Positions 1-16,667 of a DNA stretch of 35,772 bases are shown here, one piece after another (position 1 is the stretch's first letter; each line of letters opens with the position of its first letter). The notes under the pieces were generated by a model. It worked only from the letters and a program-made list of their open reading frames with translations, made no database searches and had not been told where the DNA came from. Position numbers and translations under genes: made by a program. The DNA comes from an uncultured Treponema sp. (GTDB lineage Bacteria > Spirochaetota > Spirochaetia > Treponematales > Treponemataceae): NCBI GenBank assembly GCA_946410085.1, contig CAMJZA010000036.1, positions 1 to 35,772 of the forward strand, written 5' to 3'.

Positions 1-608
1 GTAACTGGCAGTTGATTGGTTATCCAGAAAGGTTTTCTCCACGCACGTGGAGGTGTTTCTTGATAAGCCTATCCGAGGGGCTGTCCGGTAACGTTTTCTC
101 CACGCACGTGGAGGTGTTTCCGGCTATGCTTCCGGCAAGATTGGCAGCATGAAGTTTTCTCCACGCACGTGGAGGTGTTTCTAGACCCGTTCCCGCAGAA
201 ATAAGCCACAAGAAGTTTTCTCCACGCACGTGGAGGTGTTTCTTTCTATTTTCGGCGCTGTTGCTCGTCCTGTGTGTTTTCTCCACGCACGTGGAGGTGT
301 TTCTTACATGCGTAAGATGGACATTCCGGCGGTTGAGTTTTCTCCACGCACGTGGAGGTGTTTCTACAAAGTGATAGCTTTTCTTGTCCTCGAAAAGGTT
401 TTCTCCACGCACGTGGAGGTGTTTCCGAACGCCGAGGCGGAGGAGGCCCGCAAGAACCGTTTTCTCCACGCACGTGGAGGTGTTTCCGGCAGGTGGCCGT
501 TCATCAACGGACACGCCACGTTTTCTCCACGCACGTGGAGGTGTTTCCGCCTTCTTTGGTTTCAATACCAAACGGGTCAGGTTTTCTCCACGCACGTGGA
601 GGTTGAAC
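1..608 (+). CRISPR. CRISPR array, type I-E-like, 10 repeats
   Basis: Ten repeats of 28 bp start at 32, 93, 154, 215, 276, 337, 398, 459, 520 and 581, an exact 61-bp period, giving nine complete 33-bp spacers. Positions 1-31 are most of a further spacer. Nine repeats are identical. Each has the inner palindrome CTCCACG-CA-CGTGGAG, begins GTTTT and ends GTGTTTC, the layout of subtype I-E repeats. The tenth repeat keeps its first 22 bases, then diverges (ending GGTTGAAC), as expected at the leader-distal end. Leader and any cas genes should therefore lie to the left, outside the window. Spacer sequences are all different. Subtype is inferred from repeat form alone. Spacer 9 (548-580) contains its own short dyad TTTGGT/ACCAAA. 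Confidence 0.96.
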
Positions 609-1007
609 ACCCGTTACATTCTGTATCTGGTCATCCTTGAACTCTCCGAGAGTGTAAACATCATGAGTGGCGATTGAGTCACGGGTGTTCTGCCCCGCTC
701 CGACAAGCGTACACTCCCGATAATCAGGAACGTTGAACGTCGTTGAACCGTCACCAGCACCATAACCCGTGCCGATGACGTTATACAGGTCCTCATATTC
801 TGTCCTGCTTACGGCACTCCCGTCACACCACAGATAGCTGGGCGGAAGCCACGAACCCGAATACGGGAATACAATTCCTGCTGGCAGGTTGAACCCCTGT
901 CCTGCGAACTCTAGAATCCGCTTCAGCATCCTGTCTGCGTTTGACTCTGACTTCGCCGCATTTTCTTCCGAAGTCGCCGCCGACGTAGCCGACCCGAACG
1001 CCCGCGT
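504..1007 (-). pseudogene. phage tail-collar protein remnant, 3' end replaced by the CRISPR array
   Basis: The reading frame from 1007 down to about 603 encodes a phage tail-fibre/collar segment. An Ala/Ser-rich stretch (SATSAATSEENAAKSESNA) leads into a tail-collar domain with the family's hallmarks: LPAGIVFPYSG, YLWCDGSAVSRTEYEDLY, IGTGYGAGDGSTTFNVPDY and VGAGQNT. The frame opens just after a stop at 1008-1010, so the 5' part is lost. At about 602 it enters the terminal CRISPR repeat in frame, continues through spacer 9 and repeat 9, and stops at 504-506 in spacer 8. The first available ATG is at 929. The protein is broken at both ends and unlikely to work as a tail fibre. The family assignment is firm; how the join arose is inference. 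Confidence 0.8.
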
Positions 1008-1052
1008 CTACCGCATGGGCTTCACTGACGGGGAGATTGGGGAGCTTCTGGG

Positions 1053-1241
1053 GTAAGCCCTGCCCTGCAAGCTGGCGGGGCGAGGCCGGGCGCAGGCCGT
1101 CCCGCCACCGGGCGGAAAGTCATTTTCTCCACCACGGCAATAAGCGGGAGCGCGGAGGAAATTGCCCTGCTCAAGCAGAAAGCGAAGGAAGCTAGCAAGA
1201 GCGTTTCCCGCTACGTGCTGGACTGGGGTGCGGGATACTAG
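1053..1241 (+). pseudogene. ribbon-helix-helix DNA-binding protein fragment
   Basis: A frame ending at the TAG at 1239-1241 reads GRPATGRKVIFSTTAISG and continues SAEEIALLKQKAKEASKSV, then SRYVLD. The basic GRPATGR stretch, a beta-strand-like KVIFS, and a helix 'EE-x-L-L-K-x-K-A-K' followed by 'SVSRYVL' resemble CopG/Arc or MobC-type ribbon-helix-helix proteins of plasmids and phages. No ATG, GTG or TTG start lies in this frame, and a stop occurs upstream at 1026-1028, so the gene appears to have lost its 5' end or to carry a frameshift in the G-run at 1050-1053. A 7-bp inverted repeat (TGGCGGG/CCCGCCA) lies within its upstream part, near 1074-1108. Family assignment is tentative. Confidence 0.4.
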
Positions 1242-1294
1242 CATACGGCGCGGGGCAACTTCCCATTTCTAGGGGGGCAACTTTTTTTTGTGCT

Positions 1295-1609
1295 TTACAA
1301 TGCCGTAACGGGGCAACCGTTCATTCTTGCCCATCGCAAAACATTGTTAAGCCTTGCCTGATAGCCCTTTCCTGCCTGCTTGAGCCATTCAAGGGTATCG
1401 TTATCTATCTTTGTGTGAATGTCGGTCTTTGGCATTTTCAAGGACTGAATGTAATAAAAACCTCCGTTTGCGTTTGGCTTGCTGTCAGGAATGTCAGACA
1501 GGTTTATTTCACTTGCGGGGCGGCTGGCCATTTCATTCAGCTCGGCCTTTTCTTCCTCGGTAAGAGGAGGGAAGTCAATAACCCTGTATTCTTTTGGCAT
1601 TTTCTTCAT
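1295..1609 (-). CDS. brnA: BrnA-type antitoxin
   Basis: This 104-residue protein is the probable antitoxin of a type II BrnT/BrnA module. Its C-terminal third carries the BrnA signature: a short strand (KTDIHTKID) followed by LEWLKQAGKGYQARLNNVLR, the DNA-binding part through which BrnA antitoxins dimerise and repress their own promoter. The N-terminal part (PLTEEEKAELNEM and following) should wrap the toxin. The ATG at 1609 is preceded by a GGAGG at a suitable distance and lies inside the end of the toxin gene (35-bp overlap), so the two are translationally coupled, toxin first. A second ATG lies at 1600. The family assignment rests on the paired arrangement and the KGYQxRxNxVLR motif. Confidence 0.88.
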   Translation of the reverse strand: MKKMPKEYRVIDFPPLTEEEKAELNEMASRPASEINLSDIPDSKPNANGGFYYIQSLKMPKTDIHTKIDNDTLEWLKQAGKGYQARLNNVLRWARMNGCPVTAL

Positions 1610-1901
1610 AAAGCTTTACCTCCGTTGGTGTCGCGCGTCTTGCGGATATTAGCCTTATCAATCCGTCCCTGTCAGTCGCTATGACAGTCGCAATGTAAAG
1701 CCCTTCTATCCGTCCGATGTATTTATCCCTGTCTTCCTCTACGGAATGGGAATAATCATAATCTTGAAAAAGAAACGGGTCATTGAATACACGGGAAGCC
1801 TTCTCAAAAGAAAGCTTCTCATGGTTCGCTATGTTGTATTCGTTCTTTGCCGTGTCCCATACAAACGTATTGAGGTAGACAAAATCCTTTTTCCGTTCCA
1901 T
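1575..1901 (-). CDS. brnT: BrnT-type toxin (ribonuclease)
   Basis: This 108-residue protein is a BrnT-family toxin (formerly DUF497). BrnT proteins are RelE-fold ribonucleases that cut RNA and arrest translation when not held by BrnA. Family landmarks are FVWDTAKNEYNIANH near the N-terminus, LSFEKASRVFNDP, the central YIGRIEGLYIATVIAT strand pair and the C-terminal RLISARRATPTEVKLYEE. Length is normal for the family and no residue is obviously missing, so it should be active. The gene precedes brnA and overlaps it. Its ATG at 1901 has no Shine-Dalgarno sequence but sits 6 bp after a perfect -10 box, suggesting a leaderless mRNA. It lies among phage debris, CRISPR array and tRNA fragment, a usual setting for such modules. 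Confidence 0.9.
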   Translation of the reverse strand: MERKKDFVYLNTFVWDTAKNEYNIANHEKLSFEKASRVFNDPFLFQDYDYSHSVEEDRDKYIGRIEGLYIATVIATDRDGLIRLISARRATPTEVKLYEENAKRIQGY

Positions 1902-1907
1902 GATTCT

Positions 1908-1941
1908 ATTATACTCTAACTATGTACATAAAACAAGTACA
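1908..1941 (-). promoter_or_regulatory. brnTA promoter with operator-like dyad
   Basis: Reading leftward, -35 TTGTTT (1931-1936) and -10 TATAAT (1908-1913) are separated by 17 bp, an excellent sigma-70 promoter. Transcription should begin about at 1901, the first base of the brnT start codon. A dyad TGTAC-N9-GTACA (1923-1941) overlaps the -35 box. BrnA-type antitoxins repress their own promoters, so this dyad is a candidate BrnA operator; that binding is inferred. Confidence 0.65.
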
Positions 1942-2019
1942 AAATTGCAGAACAACCTAAAGTTTTTCGGTTTTCTTGTCTGCTCCTGTGCCCGCTCTGG
2001 GAGCCCCGGAACTTACTCG

Positions 2020-2066
2020 GTGTCAAACTTAAGTGTCAAGTTTTGAGTGTCAACAGGTGGTGACAA
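2020..2066 (+). repeat. GTGTCAA direct repeats, left group
   Basis: The heptamer GTGTCAA occurs at 2020, 2033 and 2047, and a one-mismatch copy GTGACAA at 2060, a regular 13-14 bp spacing. The same motif recurs in the same orientation at 2273 and 2286, on the other side of the tRNA-like segment. The 12-mer AAGTGTCAAGTT is shared by both groups (2031-2042 and 2284-2295). Such iterated short sites suggest binding sites for a recombinase, transposase or replication protein. Confidence 0.6.
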
Positions 2067-2072
2067 AAGGCT

Positions 2073-2100
2073 TTGCAAGGAAATATTTCTACTATATAAT
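2073..2100 (+). promoter_or_regulatory. promoter-like sequence upstream of the tRNA-like segment
   Basis: TTGCAA (2073-2078) and TATAAT (2095-2100) with a 16-bp spacer point rightward, predicting a start near 2107, about 17 bp before the tRNA-like acceptor-type sequence at 2124. Confidence 0.45.
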
Positions 2101-2148
2101 TGGCATGTAAACAGCGGAAAAGTGACGTATGAAAACGCTTCGGGGGAG

Positions 2149-2191
2149 CCTTCTAAGCAGTGGGTGGGCGGTTCGAATCCGCCATGCGTCA
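2149..2191 (+). other. 3' half of a tRNA-Arg(UCU)-like gene, probable attachment site
   Basis: The segment runs as the 3' half of a tRNA. It has a seven-base anticodon loop CTTCTAA (2150-2156, anticodon TCT), a 3' anticodon strand GCAGT, variable region GGGTG, and a perfect T-arm of GGCGG + TTCGAAT + CCGCC (2167-2183). A seven-base acceptor strand ATGCGTC and discriminator A (2191) follow, with no encoded CCA. The 5' half is wrong: only two anticodon-stem pairs form and no normal D-arm exists. GACGTAT at 2124-2130 could pair with the acceptor strand, with one G-U pair, but the intervening length is too short for a standard tRNA. Phages commonly integrate into the anticodon-to-3'-end part of tRNA genes and leave such a half at the far junction. 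This fits the phage remnants on its left and core genes on its right. Confidence 0.6.
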
Positions 2192-2272
2192 ATCGGGCAA
2201 GTCTTTGCGGTGCAACAGTTTGCCCTTCCCTTCCCTAAAAACGGGCAGGCTATTTTCCGTTGAAAAAAACAG

Positions 2273-2292
2273 GTGTCAAGAGGAAGTGTCAA
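2273..2292 (+). repeat. GTGTCAA direct repeats, right group
   Basis: Two GTGTCAA heptamers at 2273-2279 and 2286-2292, again 13 bp apart and in the same orientation as the left group at 2020-2066. Because the two groups are direct rather than inverted copies, they do not form the terminal inverted repeats of a simple insertion sequence. Confidence 0.55.
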
Positions 2293-2323
2293 GTTCCAGA
2301 TGATGCCATATGGGAGGTCCGCC

Positions 2324-2422
2324 ATGCACGAGCCGTTACCATTCATACTCTACATTTCCCCTTATGCCGGTCTTCTGGTGCCCGTTTTCTGCTGTTTTTC
2401 TGTGTTCTGTTGTTTCTGTTAA
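2324..2422 (+). CDS. possible small hydrophobic protein
   Basis: A 32-codon ORF starting ATG at 2324 has a GGGAGG six bases upstream. It encodes a short hydrophobic peptide with a Cys/Phe-rich C-terminal half (PVFCCFSVFCCFC). The size and membrane-like composition recall small membrane peptides or type I toxins, but there is no homology evidence and the composition could simply reflect a T-rich strand. It is recorded because the ribosome-binding site is good. Confidence 0.22.
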   Translation: MHEPLPFILYISPYAGLLVPVFCCFSVFCCFC

Positions 2423-2446
2423 TCAGGGACATTTTGCCTGTAATAC

Positions 2447-2475
2447 TTGACAAAAAACCGTATAATTTGCAAAAT
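2447..2475 (+). promoter_or_regulatory. possible promoter of the HTH-PTS IIA gene
   Basis: TTGACA (2447-2452) has a weak -10 CAAAAT at 2470-2475 (17-bp spacer). A perfect TATAAT at 2461-2466 lies only 8 bp after TTGACA and has at best a TTGCCT 21 bp upstream. The stretch is clearly promoter-like but which pair is used is unclear. Confidence 0.4.
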
Positions 2476-2519
2476 GTTCTAAAATAAAGTTGTGGGAACG
2501 CAGTGAAGGGAGTATTATC

Positions 2520-3167
2520 GTGAACGATGATGATATTTTAACAATAGATGAAGTTGCAAAGTACCTGCGCGTGAGCGAGCGTACCGTGTATGAATGGGCA
2601 CAGAAGGGTGAAATCCCGAGCGGCAAGATAGGAACCGTCTGGCGCTTCAAGAAGGCCGAGATAGAGAAGTGGGTCAATGACCGCCTGTCTTCTCAGACCA
2701 GCCGGAGCGTTGATGTGTCCGTCCAGCTCAAGAATATCATTTCTCCGGAGCGGATTATCTTCATGAGCCATCCGACCAAGAACGATGCCCTCATTGAGCT
2801 GTCGGAAAATCTTGCGACGGCACCGCAGGTAAAGGACGCAAAGGAACTCCAGAAGGAGATCCTCAAGCGGGAAGACCTCATGTCGACGGCGATCGGCCGC
2901 GGTATTGCAATTCCCCATGTCCGCCTTGCGTCCGTTACCGACCTGGTCATGTCCGTGGGCATTTCCAAGGTTGACGTCATAGACTTCAATCCGATCGACG
3001 ATGTGCCGGTGCGCCTCATGTTCATGATTGCCGCCGCCTACAACCAGCACAGCTATTACCTGCAGACGCTCTCCTATTTCAGTTCAAAAATCCGCAATTC
3101 ACAGCTCCGCGACTCCCTCCTGGCTTCCGAAAGCCCGGATGAAGCCTACCGGCTCCTGATTCAGTAG
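2520..3167 (+). CDS. HTH - PTS EIIA (fructose/mannitol type) fusion regulator
   Basis: A 215-residue fusion. Residues 6-53 form an excisionase/MerR-like helix-turn-helix (LTIDEVAKYLRVSERTVYEW, then a wing IGTVWRFKKAEIEKWV). Residues 72-215 form a PTS EIIA type-2 domain with the phosphorylation motif GIAIPHVR, phospho-accepting His at about 133. EIIA-2 domains take phosphate from HPr; joined to a DNA-binding head and without IIB/IIC parts, this is best read as a sensor-regulator coupling phosphotransferase state to transcription, like PtsN-type proteins in spirochaetes. I chose the GTG at 2520 because GGGAG lies eight bases upstream and the HTH begins at once; a TTG at 2490 would add ten residues. 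Its end overlaps the convergent next gene by 7 bp. The regulated genes are unknown. Confidence 0.85.
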   Translation: MNDDDILTIDEVAKYLRVSERTVYEWAQKGEIPSGKIGTVWRFKKAEIEKWVNDRLSSQTSRSVDVSVQLKNIISPERIIFMSHPTKNDALIELSENLATAPQVKDAKELQKEILKREDLMSTAIGRGIAIPHVRLASVTDLVMSVGISKVDVIDFNPIDDVPVRLMFMIAAAYNQHSYYLQTLSYFSSKIRNSQLRDSLLASESPDEAYRLLIQ

Positions 3168-10083: not shown

Positions 10084-10094
10084 AATAGGCAGGT

Positions 10095-10508
10095 ATGGCA
10101 AAAGACAGCAGCGTAAATGTGACTGAGTTTGGAGAAGGTACCGTATTCGACGGCGAGCTTTCCTTTACCGACAGCCTGATAATCAGCGGTAAGTTTTCCG
10201 GTACGATTGATGCGGCCGGTGACCTCCAGATAAGCAAGGGGGCGGAATGTGACGTGGACAGCATTCGGGCTAAGTCCGTCGTCGTCTACGGCAAGGTCGA
10301 AGGCGACATTGACGGCAGGGACCGGGTTGAACTGTGCAAGGGCAGTTCCGTCAGGGGAAATATCAAGACCTCCGTCCTGCGGATTGCCGACAACGTAGAG
10401 TTTGACGGCAGTGTTTCGATGGTGGACAACCCCGAAGAAAGCTATGACAGGCTTTTCCTGTCCGCATCCGACGAATTCAAGAAATCCCTCATAACGAAAA
10501 GCAATTAG
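10095..10508 (+). CDS. bactofilin
   Basis: A 137-residue bactofilin (DUF583/PF04519), a polymer-forming cytoskeletal protein. The core is a right-handed beta-helix made of short repeats rich in G, V, I and D: LIISGKFSGTIDAAGDLQIS, VVVYGKVEGDIDGRDRVEL and VRGNIKTSVLRIADNVEFDG. Short unstructured tails flank it, with an acidic C-terminal stretch NPEESYDRLFLSASDEF. Bactofilins shape cells and, in helical bacteria, influence cell curvature and murein hydrolase placement. The gene starts 11 bp after lnt with AGG before the ATG and probably shares its transcript. Confidence 0.92.
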   Translation: MAKDSSVNVTEFGEGTVFDGELSFTDSLIISGKFSGTIDAAGDLQISKGAECDVDSIRAKSVVVYGKVEGDIDGRDRVELCKGSSVRGNIKTSVLRIADNVEFDGSVSMVDNPEESYDRLFLSASDEFKKSLITKSN

Positions 10509-14069: not shown

Positions 14070-16667
14070 TTACAGGAGCGAGACGTAGGTCTTGCCGGTG
14101 CCGCCGTCTTCCGGCGGGGCAAAATGGAATTCCTTGACGCCCGGATAGTGGGACAGGTAATCGTGCACGGCCTGCTGGAGGATTCCCGAGCCTTTCCCGT
14201 GGATGACCGAAAAATGCTTGAAGTCGTGGATGATGCAAAGGTCTATCTGGTGTTCCAGTTCCTTCATCGCCTCCTCGCTCCGCATGCCCAGCAGGCGCAG
14301 CTCAAACTTGGGCCGCTCGTCGTCAATCCCGGTTACGGAAGGGGCTTCTATTTCCACCCGGGGGCCGCCGGTACCCGGCTTCGGGGGCAGGAGGTAAATC
14401 TGTCCCCTGGGGACATTCATTTTCAGTGAACCGAACTGGACGCTCCAGCTTCCGTCCTTGTTGTCGGCAAGGAGGGTTCCCTGCAGCTTCTTTGCACCGG
14501 CAAGGACTTCCCTGCCGGGCTCAAAGGTCAGCTCCTGCTTCCGCTGCCGTATCTGTGCCCGGCGGCTTTCCTGTGCGTCCGTCCTGCCGCTTTCCTGCCG
14601 GTCCGGTACGCTTGCCAGCGCAAATGCCTCCGCTGCCGAAAGCCGTTTCCTGCTTTTCTTTTTTGACCCCTGTGCGTGCGAGCCTTCCCGTGCCTTTGAA
14701 AGCCGGATGCCGTTTTCGGCAATCTGCTCCTCCTCCTGCTGCTGCCGCTCCTTTTCTTCCTCGAGCTTGAGCCGGTCTGCTTCCAGCTGCCGGTCCCGCT
14801 CCGCTATGTCCTTTTCCAGTTCGCCGATGAACGAGCGGACCTTGAGGGTCTTTTCGCGGGTAATCTCGCCTTCCCGCAGTTCCCGCACGAGGTTTTCGAG
14901 CAGGCTCCGCGTTTCAACGAGGAAGCGGCTTTCCTGGACACTGTGCTGCTCCCGCAGCTCCAGCTCCCGCGCGTGGATTGCAAGTTCCCGTCCGTGCAGC
15001 CTGGCGGTTTTTGCGGCAAGCTCTGCGTTCCTGATCCGCTCTTCCCGCAGCAGTGCGTCTATTTCCGCGTGCTTTTCGGTCAGCCCCTTGATGAGGGCGG
15101 AAACGTCAGCCTTCTCGCCCGCGATGTATGCGCCGGCCTGTGCGACGATTGCTTCCGGCAGGCCGGACCTGCGGGCTATGTCGAGCGCGTGGCTCTCGCC
15201 GGGAACTCCCATCAGCAGGCGGTAGGTGGGGCTGAGCGTGCCGGGATCAAATTCGACCGAAGCGTTGATGCAGCCGGGTTTCGTGTAGCCGTAGTTCTTG
15301 AGGATGCCGTGGTGGGTCGTCACGAGGACAAAGGCGCTGCGTTCTATGAGCGTGTCCAGCACCGCCATCGCGATGGCGCCTCCTTCCTGCGGGTCGGTAC
15401 CGCTGCCCAGTTCGTCAAGCAGGACCAGGCTGTCCCCGTCCGCACACTGCACGATTTCTGCCATCTTCTTCATGTGGCTCGAGAAAGTGCTCAGCGATTC
15501 GTCAATCGACTGCTCGTCGCCGATGTCGGCATAGACGGAACTGAAAAAGGGCAGCTTTGTTCCGTCGTCCGCCGGGACGGGAAAGCCCGCCTGGTTCATC
15601 AGGGCAAAGAGGGCGACCGTCTTGAGCGTAACGGTCTTGCCGCCGGTGTTGGGGCCGGTGATGATCAGGATGTTCTTGCCGTCCATGAAGCTGATGTCCA
15701 CCGGAACCGCCTTTTCGCCGAGCAGGGGATGGCGGGCAGCCTTGATGAGCGGCGGCTCCTGCCTCCGGTCGCAGTCTTCCGCAAAACAGCCCTTGACGGA
15801 AACAAGGTAGCGGGCGGCGGCGAGCGTCGTGTCCATGAGGAGCAGCTGGCCGTGGGCCTGCTCCAGTTCTTCCTTGTACAGGGAAAGCCTTTCCGTCAGT
15901 TCGCGGAGGATTTTCTTTATCTCGTTTGCAAGGCGGGCTTCTTCCTGTACCAGCTCGTTGTTAGCCCTGACCGCCTCTTCCGGTTCAATGTACAGGGTTT
16001 GTCCCGAAGCGCTGACTTCATGGATGATGCCCGAAACCGTCCCCCGCCGGTCAGCCCGGACGGCGAGCAGCTGCCGGTCGCCCCGCATGACGGGCACGTT
16101 TGACTGCAGGAAGGCTTTCTGCGTGTTGTCTGCCGTGTACTTCCGTATTGCGCCTTCCGCTTCCTTCTGCAGCTCCCGGATCCTGTTCCGTATGGCCCTG
16201 AGTGCGGGCAGGTCCTTTACCTCTCCGTCCTTGTCCAGCACGGAAAACACCTCGGCTTCTGCCTGTGACAGGTCCGGCATGGACAGGGCATGTGCTTCAA
16301 GCTTTTTGAGGGGCAGGGAGGCTGCCGCTCCGCTGACGGCCTCCCGCAGCCGGTCCGCAGACTGGCACAGAAGGCCGAGCGCAAATGCCTGTTCCCGGCT
16401 CAGCTGTGCCCCTTCAATGCCCAAAAGCTTAAAGGAGTCCGTTACCGGCGGCCAGGGGGCAAGGGGGGCAGGGCGGGCAGACTTCAGGTAGACGGCCCAC
16501 TCCTTTCCGAGGGCCTTGAGCCCGGCAATCTCATCCCGGTCCGTGACGGGTTCCCGCCTGAGGAGCAGGGCCTTTCCCTCCTCGCTTGCCGCAAAGCGGG
16601 CGACCTGGTTCCGTATGCGGTAAAAATCCAGTTCCTCTGCCGTCTGACCTGAAAGATGTTCGCTCAT
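14070..16667 (-). CDS. mutS2: MutS2 (Smr-domain DNA/ribosome endonuclease)
   Basis: An 865-residue MutS2. After the N-terminal core and clamp comes the ATPase: Walker A GPNTGGKT at 338-345, then FSSVYADIGDEQSIDESLSTFSSH, Walker B LVLLDELGSGTDPQEGG and TTHHGILKNYGY. A long charged coiled-coil follows. The C-terminal Smr domain has LLGMRSEEAMKEL and VIHGKGSGIL. MutS2 lacks the mismatch-recognition domain of MutS; it has been linked to suppression of homologous recombination and, in Bacillus, to rescue of collided ribosomes. The Smr LDLRG-type motif reads LRLLG here, so nuclease activity may be altered. The ATG at 16667 has no Shine-Dalgarno sequence. Confidence 0.95.
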   Translation of the reverse strand: MSEHLSGQTAEELDFYRIRNQVARFAASEEGKALLLRREPVTDRDEIAGLKALGKEWAVYLKSARPAPLAPWPPVTDSFKLLGIEGAQLSREQAFALGLLCQSADRLREAVSGAAASLPLKKLEAHALSMPDLSQAEAEVFSVLDKDGEVKDLPALRAIRNRIRELQKEAEGAIRKYTADNTQKAFLQSNVPVMRGDRQLLAVRADRRGTVSGIIHEVSASGQTLYIEPEEAVRANNELVQEEARLANEIKKILRELTERLSLYKEELEQAHGQLLLMDTTLAAARYLVSVKGCFAEDCDRRQEPPLIKAARHPLLGEKAVPVDISFMDGKNILIITGPNTGGKTVTLKTVALFALMNQAGFPVPADDGTKLPFFSSVYADIGDEQSIDESLSTFSSHMKKMAEIVQCADGDSLVLLDELGSGTDPQEGGAIAMAVLDTLIERSAFVLVTTHHGILKNYGYTKPGCINASVEFDPGTLSPTYRLLMGVPGESHALDIARRSGLPEAIVAQAGAYIAGEKADVSALIKGLTEKHAEIDALLREERIRNAELAAKTARLHGRELAIHARELELREQHSVQESRFLVETRSLLENLVRELREGEITREKTLKVRSFIGELEKDIAERDRQLEADRLKLEEEKERQQQEEEQIAENGIRLSKAREGSHAQGSKKKSRKRLSAAEAFALASVPDRQESGRTDAQESRRAQIRQRKQELTFEPGREVLAGAKKLQGTLLADNKDGSWSVQFGSLKMNVPRGQIYLLPPKPGTGGPRVEIEAPSVTGIDDERPKFELRLLGMRSEEAMKELEHQIDLCIIHDFKHFSVIHGKGSGILQQAVHDYLSHYPGVKEFHFAPPEDGGTGKTYVSLL

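Follow-up and report, generated by a model that had tools for sequence, protein, structure and literature searches.

The Vibrio phage ICP1 carries a type I-F CRISPR-Cas system in its own genome. Vibrio is known to have CRISPR-Cas on islands and prophages flanked by attachment (att) sites, one of them being the excisable type I-E island GI-24 (PMC6360697). GI-24, from classical strains of Vibrio cholerae, is inserted between VC0289 and VC0290 and has its own integrase, and its excision has been shown by PCR (PMC6360697). In V. cholerae HE-45, a hybrid III-B/I-F system is linked to a region recognised as a prophage by phage homology (PMC6360697).

The window analysed here is a stretch of 35,772 nucleotides from an uncultured Treponema sp., and corresponds to contig C36 of a draft genome in 134 contigs (G000). 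It begins in a CRISPR array that runs into a phage tail-collar gene (Table 1). The most probable explanation is that the array belongs to a prophage-derived, integrase-less island at tRNA-Arg(TCT) with a complete type I-E locus, in which a deletion joined the old end of the array to a tail gene. The locus resembles GI-24 in that a type I-E system lies on an att-flanked island, with the same variant gene order cas3-cas8e-cse2-cas6-cas7-cas5-cas1-cas2 (PMC6360697); it differs from GI-24 in its insertion site, tRNA-Arg, in the loss of the integrase and in an array that runs out into a phage tail gene. As in HE-45, direct repeats enclose a prophage region that has CRISPR-Cas at one of its ends, but the CRISPR type is another one and the Treponema island keeps only a collar fragment and an attachment end. 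The physical linkage of CRISPR-Cas to phage DNA is shared with ICP1, whereas the present system sits on a bacterial chromosome, in an island that retains phage remnants, and its Cas1 is only 23% identical to that of ICP1. CRISPR-Cas islands of this kind are already known; the present one is from another phylum, and combines an integrase-less tRNA-Arg island with an array ending in a tail gene.

Table 1. Features at the left end of the window, in order of position.
Feature	Position	Strand	Details
Leader-distal end of type I-E CRISPR array	1..608	+	10 repeats, 9 full spacers, one cut spacer at the contig edge
Last repeat, junction	581..608	+	phage-gene sequence after 603
Truncated phage tail-fibre/tail-collar gene	609..1007	-	~133 codons; Pfam Collar PF07484 at ~714-878
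Ribbon-helix-helix-like small-gene remnant	1074..1241	+	family assigned by eye
BrnA antitoxin	1295..1609	-	PF14384, E=5.7e-12
BrnT toxin	1575..1901	-	PF04365, E=2.6e-18
Likely integrase arm sites left of core	2021..2053	+	three TGTCAA (2021, 2034, 2048)
Attachment core	2148..2197	+	exact copy of G000:C2:8921-8970(-), orientation consistent
Right arm and integrase stub	2198..2354	+	TGTCAA at 2274 and 2287, then MHEPLPFILY..., cut short
HTH/PTS EIIA-like gene	2438..3167	+	chromosomal flank resumes, outside island

The array contains ten copies of the 28-nt repeat GTTTTCTCCACGCACGTGGAGGTGTTTC, separated by 33-nt spacers. Nine of the ten are perfect copies; in the tenth, the match holds to position 603 and then gives way to TGAAC in place of GTTTC, so that the array and the truncated collar gene on the opposite strand meet inside the last repeat. 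The original prediction had placed the junction in exactly this repeat, and it stands: 23 repeat bases are intact, and the conserved part of the collar protein ends at QNVTG. The join is real in the present assembly; a second, independent assembly of it was sought and none was found.

The collar fragment matches Pfam Collar with E=1.8e-19, and PHROG tail and collar families also match. A stop codon lies immediately upstream of position 1007, and the 3’ end of the gene is replaced by the array. Specifically, collar relatives in Treponema genomes and viral contigs have the motif HDVY..GEFKDDQ(I/F)Q in common and their proteins continue past it, while the window protein passes from QNVTG into repeat sequence; the collar gene is therefore truncated at the array. 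An intact ancestor of the gene was looked for and not found. On contig C78 of the same genome, a prophage (L059) has convergent collar genes at 14955-15815(+) and 15812-16210(-) with long inverted repeats between them (104 nt, 80%; 69 nt, 77%), which may be an invertible tail-fibre cassette interrupted by the end of the contig. Because this prophage has collar genes that face each other, the minus-strand placement of the window collar piece is not strange. Between the collar fragment and the small-gene remnant, positions 1008-1073 encode on the plus strand a peptide ending in DPNARVYRMGFTDGEIGELLG at a stop codon; no relative of it was found, and it is probably another gene fragment. The small-gene remnant has no match in PHROG, and is 84% identical over 1074-1227 to a prophage gene of Treponema sp. 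RUI307 (G160) with the tail genes on one side and the attachment site on the other.

The collar reading frame had been described as running uninterrupted into the array. Such a frame does exist: on the minus strand, the frame from 1007 runs through the Collar domain, repeat 10, spacer 9 and repeat 9 to a stop at 504. As an indication of fusion, it is worth no more than chance. The reverse complement of GTTTTCTCCACGCACGTGGAGGTGTTTC has no stop codon in any of its three frames, and the three minus-strand frames that enter the array from 608 stay open for 195, 34 (the collar frame) and 9 codons; a 196-aa open frame even spans the entire array (20-610). With no stop in any frame of the repeat on the minus strand, and with two out of three frames passing beyond repeat 10, spacer 9 and repeat 9, the in-frame join is attributed to chance. 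A functional collar-array fusion protein was accordingly considered and rejected on the same stop-free repeat, and no protein function is to be read into the fused frame. As a general caution, frames that run into CRISPR arrays are uninformative where the repeat has no stop codon.

The cas genes, which the original prediction proposed to search for to the left, are all present together with a leader on a separate contig. Elsewhere in the genome, the repeat occurs only at the very start of contig C2. Read in reverse from the inside outwards, C2 contains four further repeats, the leader, cas2e, cas1e, cas5e, cas7e, cas6e, cas11e, cas8e and cas3. All type I-E signature genes are present by PADLOC (Cas8e, Cas11e, Cas7e, Cas5e, Cas6e and Cas3e), in agreement with Pfam, and cas1 and cas2 adjoin a leader and an array with 28-nt repeats and ~33-nt spacers. 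In this complete type I-E locus, which is split over two contigs, the window array forms the leader-distal end; the shared repeats suggest that C2 and C36 join via the array, with the contig gap inside it. The spacers match none of the loci compared in the analysis. The best spacer matches in the genus are too weak to call, namely spacer 4 with a gapped 91% over 32 nt in G030 (ungapped 26/33) and spacer 7 with 27/33 in G069.

The attachment sites define the boundaries of the island. An intact tRNA-Arg(TCT) is located at G000:C2:8926-9001(-), and cas3 starts ~35 bp beyond it. Fifty base pairs, comprising the last 45 bp of this tRNA and 5 bp of flank, recur exactly as the attachment core of the window. 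Arm repeats of the same kind are found at the same place in the prophage ends of RUI307, and the stretch of tRNA, arm and integrase start in that prophage shares 86.5% identity with the window sequence from the core to the end of the integrase stub (2148-2354). The HTH/PTS EIIA-like gene outside the island is present in 196/196 genomes searched. Since an exact tRNA repeat is found at both ends, CRISPR-Cas, the collar fragment, the small-gene remnant and BrnT/BrnA lie between two attachment cores. One end of the island thus carries the intact tRNA and the other a direct repeat of the tRNA 3’ end, as seen on two contigs joined through the array. Of an integrase of its own there are only the first codons, to the right of the second core, and we therefore regard the element as a remnant without an integrase rather than an autonomous one. 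Because the att sites place the locus in a prophage-derived element, the link to phage is more than that of a chance neighbour.

An Rfam search of window positions 1-3000 returned nothing. ARAGORN reported no tRNA in the window, because the 3’ tRNA copy is partial. An empty site in relatives was sought via the PTS gene and tRNA-Arg, and none was found; the neighbours differ between species. In RUI307, tRNA-Pro/Val is located upstream of the PTS gene instead of tRNA-Arg, so the region near this gene is also rearranged. The attachment core of RUI307 directly abuts the start codon of a bactofilin gene (C35:14969-15374); the window bactofilin gene (10094-10499) is 8 kb further right, a rearrangement near the island.

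Among 200 Treponema genomes, the exact repeat core is found elsewhere only in RUI307, which is also the only relative with a full array. Its contig C92 has the order hisS, an MCP-like gene, tRNA-Arg, arms, integrase (Pfam E=3.4e-22) and a repressor-like gene. Contig C1 contains tail tape measure, tail fibres, a small gene, arm, core and a toxin-antitoxin-like region, followed by the arm sequence again, cas3, the same cas operon and the array. The end of contig C35 contains a small gene, arm and core, adjoining the bactofilin gene. The RUI307 prophage (C92/C1) and the window island have in common the tRNA-Arg core, the arm repeats, the integrase start and the small gene before the core; unlike the island, the prophage has an integrase, a repressor-like gene and tail genes. 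The RUI307 CRISPR locus is positioned beyond the right attachment core of this prophage, putatively in a second tandem element, a placement that depends on joining C1 to C35.

The arm sequence itself is informative. The 22-mer GTGTCAAGTTCCAGATGATGCC occurs at only four sites in 196 genomes, each downstream of the tRNA-Arg core: at window position 2286, before the integrase on C92 of RUI307, ~20 nt before the cas3 start on C1 of RUI307, and on contig C174 of G069. As it precedes both integrase and cas3 in RUI307, the CRISPR-Cas cassette sits where the integrase would be.

The cas DNA is far more conserved than the chromosome. Between the window genome and RUI307, identity is 98.6% for cas1 and 99.2% for the leader, compared with 84.3% for hisS and 83.3% for the PTS gene. 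A third genome (G151) has a partial cas operon that is 94% identical to the one in the window genome and 98% identical to that in RUI307, and the operon is present in 3/196 genus genomes altogether. The next Cas1 in the genus is 37% identical; plasmid-borne Cas1e of Klebsiella and Enterobacter reaches up to 68%. Because the cas DNA is 94-99% identical between species with hisS at 84%, the locus moved recently, and the CRISPR-Cas system has spread horizontally.

The repeat, or a variant of it, also occurs elsewhere. Testudinibacter, a gammaproteobacterium, has an array of the close variant repeat ATTTTCTCCACGCCCGTGGAGGTGTTTC with one exact copy (L009, 2296-3177), and thus has the same repeat family. 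In 8 kb of Spirochaetaceae UBA6243 (L010), a single exact copy was found at 2222-2249 between an ABC-F-like gene and small genes, and no cas genes were recognised. The viral contig IMGVR_UViG_3300033076_000685 (L124) has a solitary copy (27/28) at 159-186(-), beside holin- and lysozyme-like genes. Solitary repeat units have been described as RNA anti-CRISPRs (PMC10651486), and the copy on the viral contig looks like a unit of this kind. A solitary repeat-like sequence, GTTTTCTCCACGTGCGTGGAGGTGTTTC (26/28, with its centre inverted), is located near 1503(-) in L132 (contig C42 of G066) and near 1502(-) in L133 (contig C39 of G017), with no second copy in ~3 kb around each. The copy in G066 interrupts an integrase-like reading frame.

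These observations can be arranged into a plausible history. Phages of one family would use tRNA-Arg(TCT) as attachment site, and a CRISPR-Cas cassette would have come to lie beside the left attachment end, the position of the integrase in the autonomous prophage. A deletion would then have removed the oldest end of the array and most of the adjoining prophage, with one breakpoint inside a repeat and the other inside the collar gene, leaving a 0.4-kb collar piece and the right end of the prophage (the small gene and attachment site). Degenerate last repeats are usual for the ends of CRISPR arrays. The last three repeats of the RUI307 array are degenerate and its trailer is a different sequence from that of the window, while the window repeats show no decay up to the junction; given this difference, deletion of the oldest array end is the simplest account. 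We infer the following order for the island: tRNA-Arg, cas3-cas8e-cas11-cas6e-cas7-cas5-cas1-cas2, leader, array (with the contig gap inside), collar fragment, small-gene remnant, BrnTA, arm repeats, second core, other arm and integrase stub. The array and cas genes would be expected to act as ordinary type I-E immunity. As acquisition takes place at the leader, at least 0.6 kb away, the old array end would be inert, and the collar fragment would be a pseudogene whose fused frame has no function. In principle, the island could be excised or mobilised in trans by related prophages that share its core and arms.

Of the two origins that the original prediction had offered for the junction, a recombination that joined array and prophage is supported by these results, the collar piece being what is left of a tail gene, 0.4 kb long, where the att-bounded island has its phage-type right end. 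Carriage of the array by the phage itself gains no such support, given a full host-type I-E operon on C2 and no viral contig with a close Cas1. In its broader form, the latter idea holds that the type I-E system was cargo of a temperate phage of the same family and that the window is a decayed prophage which has lost most of its structural genes. Such cargo would fit the position of CRISPR-Cas between phage-type att sites, the RUI307 cas3 directly after the arm sequence found ahead of the integrase in the autonomous prophage, the similarity of cas genes across species relative to the chromosome, and the precedent of prophage-borne CRISPR-Cas in Vibrio (PMC6360697). We nevertheless consider it unlikely, because Cas1 matches in deposited phages are all below 60% identity, and because an attachment core separates the integrase-bearing prophage of RUI307 from the CRISPR locus. 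The sole recognised phage gene in 609-2197 is the truncated collar gene, with no capsid, terminase or complete tail gene seen, and hence phage structural or replication genes do not surround the array. A search of deposited phages gave no match to the array, nor did viral contigs yield the attachment core; the repeat occurs in only one viral contig, as the single solitary copy described above, in an unrelated phage.

It is very unlikely that the locus is an ordinary resident CRISPR-Cas system downstream of tRNA-Arg, near which phages integrated and decayed while CRISPR never moved with them. Although cas3 of the window genome follows the tRNA by ~35 bp with no phage arm between, and arrays commonly end beside decayed DNA, both the recent move indicated by the rare, highly similar operon and the arm sequence immediately before cas3 in RUI307 argue against a resident locus. 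An assembly chimera, in which the end of the array contig was wrongly joined to a prophage fragment, seems scarcely probable at all. The draft is fragmented, repeats cause misjoins, the collar fragment is short and its junction is seen in one assembly; yet the join follows 23 perfect repeat bases and leads into unique sequence, and the collar DNA is found nowhere else in the genome (best other match, 48 bp at 81%). Moreover, the second tRNA core exactly matches the tRNA on the cas contig, as predicted for an att-bounded island.

The preferred reading, a prophage-derived island truncated by deletion, may be one instance of something wider. We suggest only tentatively, as a possibility that we regard as doubtful, that satellite-like elements form a family in Treponema, each with a type I-E CRISPR-Cas cassette between phage attachment arms where the integrase would otherwise stand. 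If so, such elements would spread between species on the borrowed integrase, and perhaps in the virions, of related prophages, and would give their host immunity while spreading. The island itself, att-bounded, derived from a prophage and placed at a single tRNA gene, would provide a concrete route for the movement of CRISPR-Cas among Treponema species.
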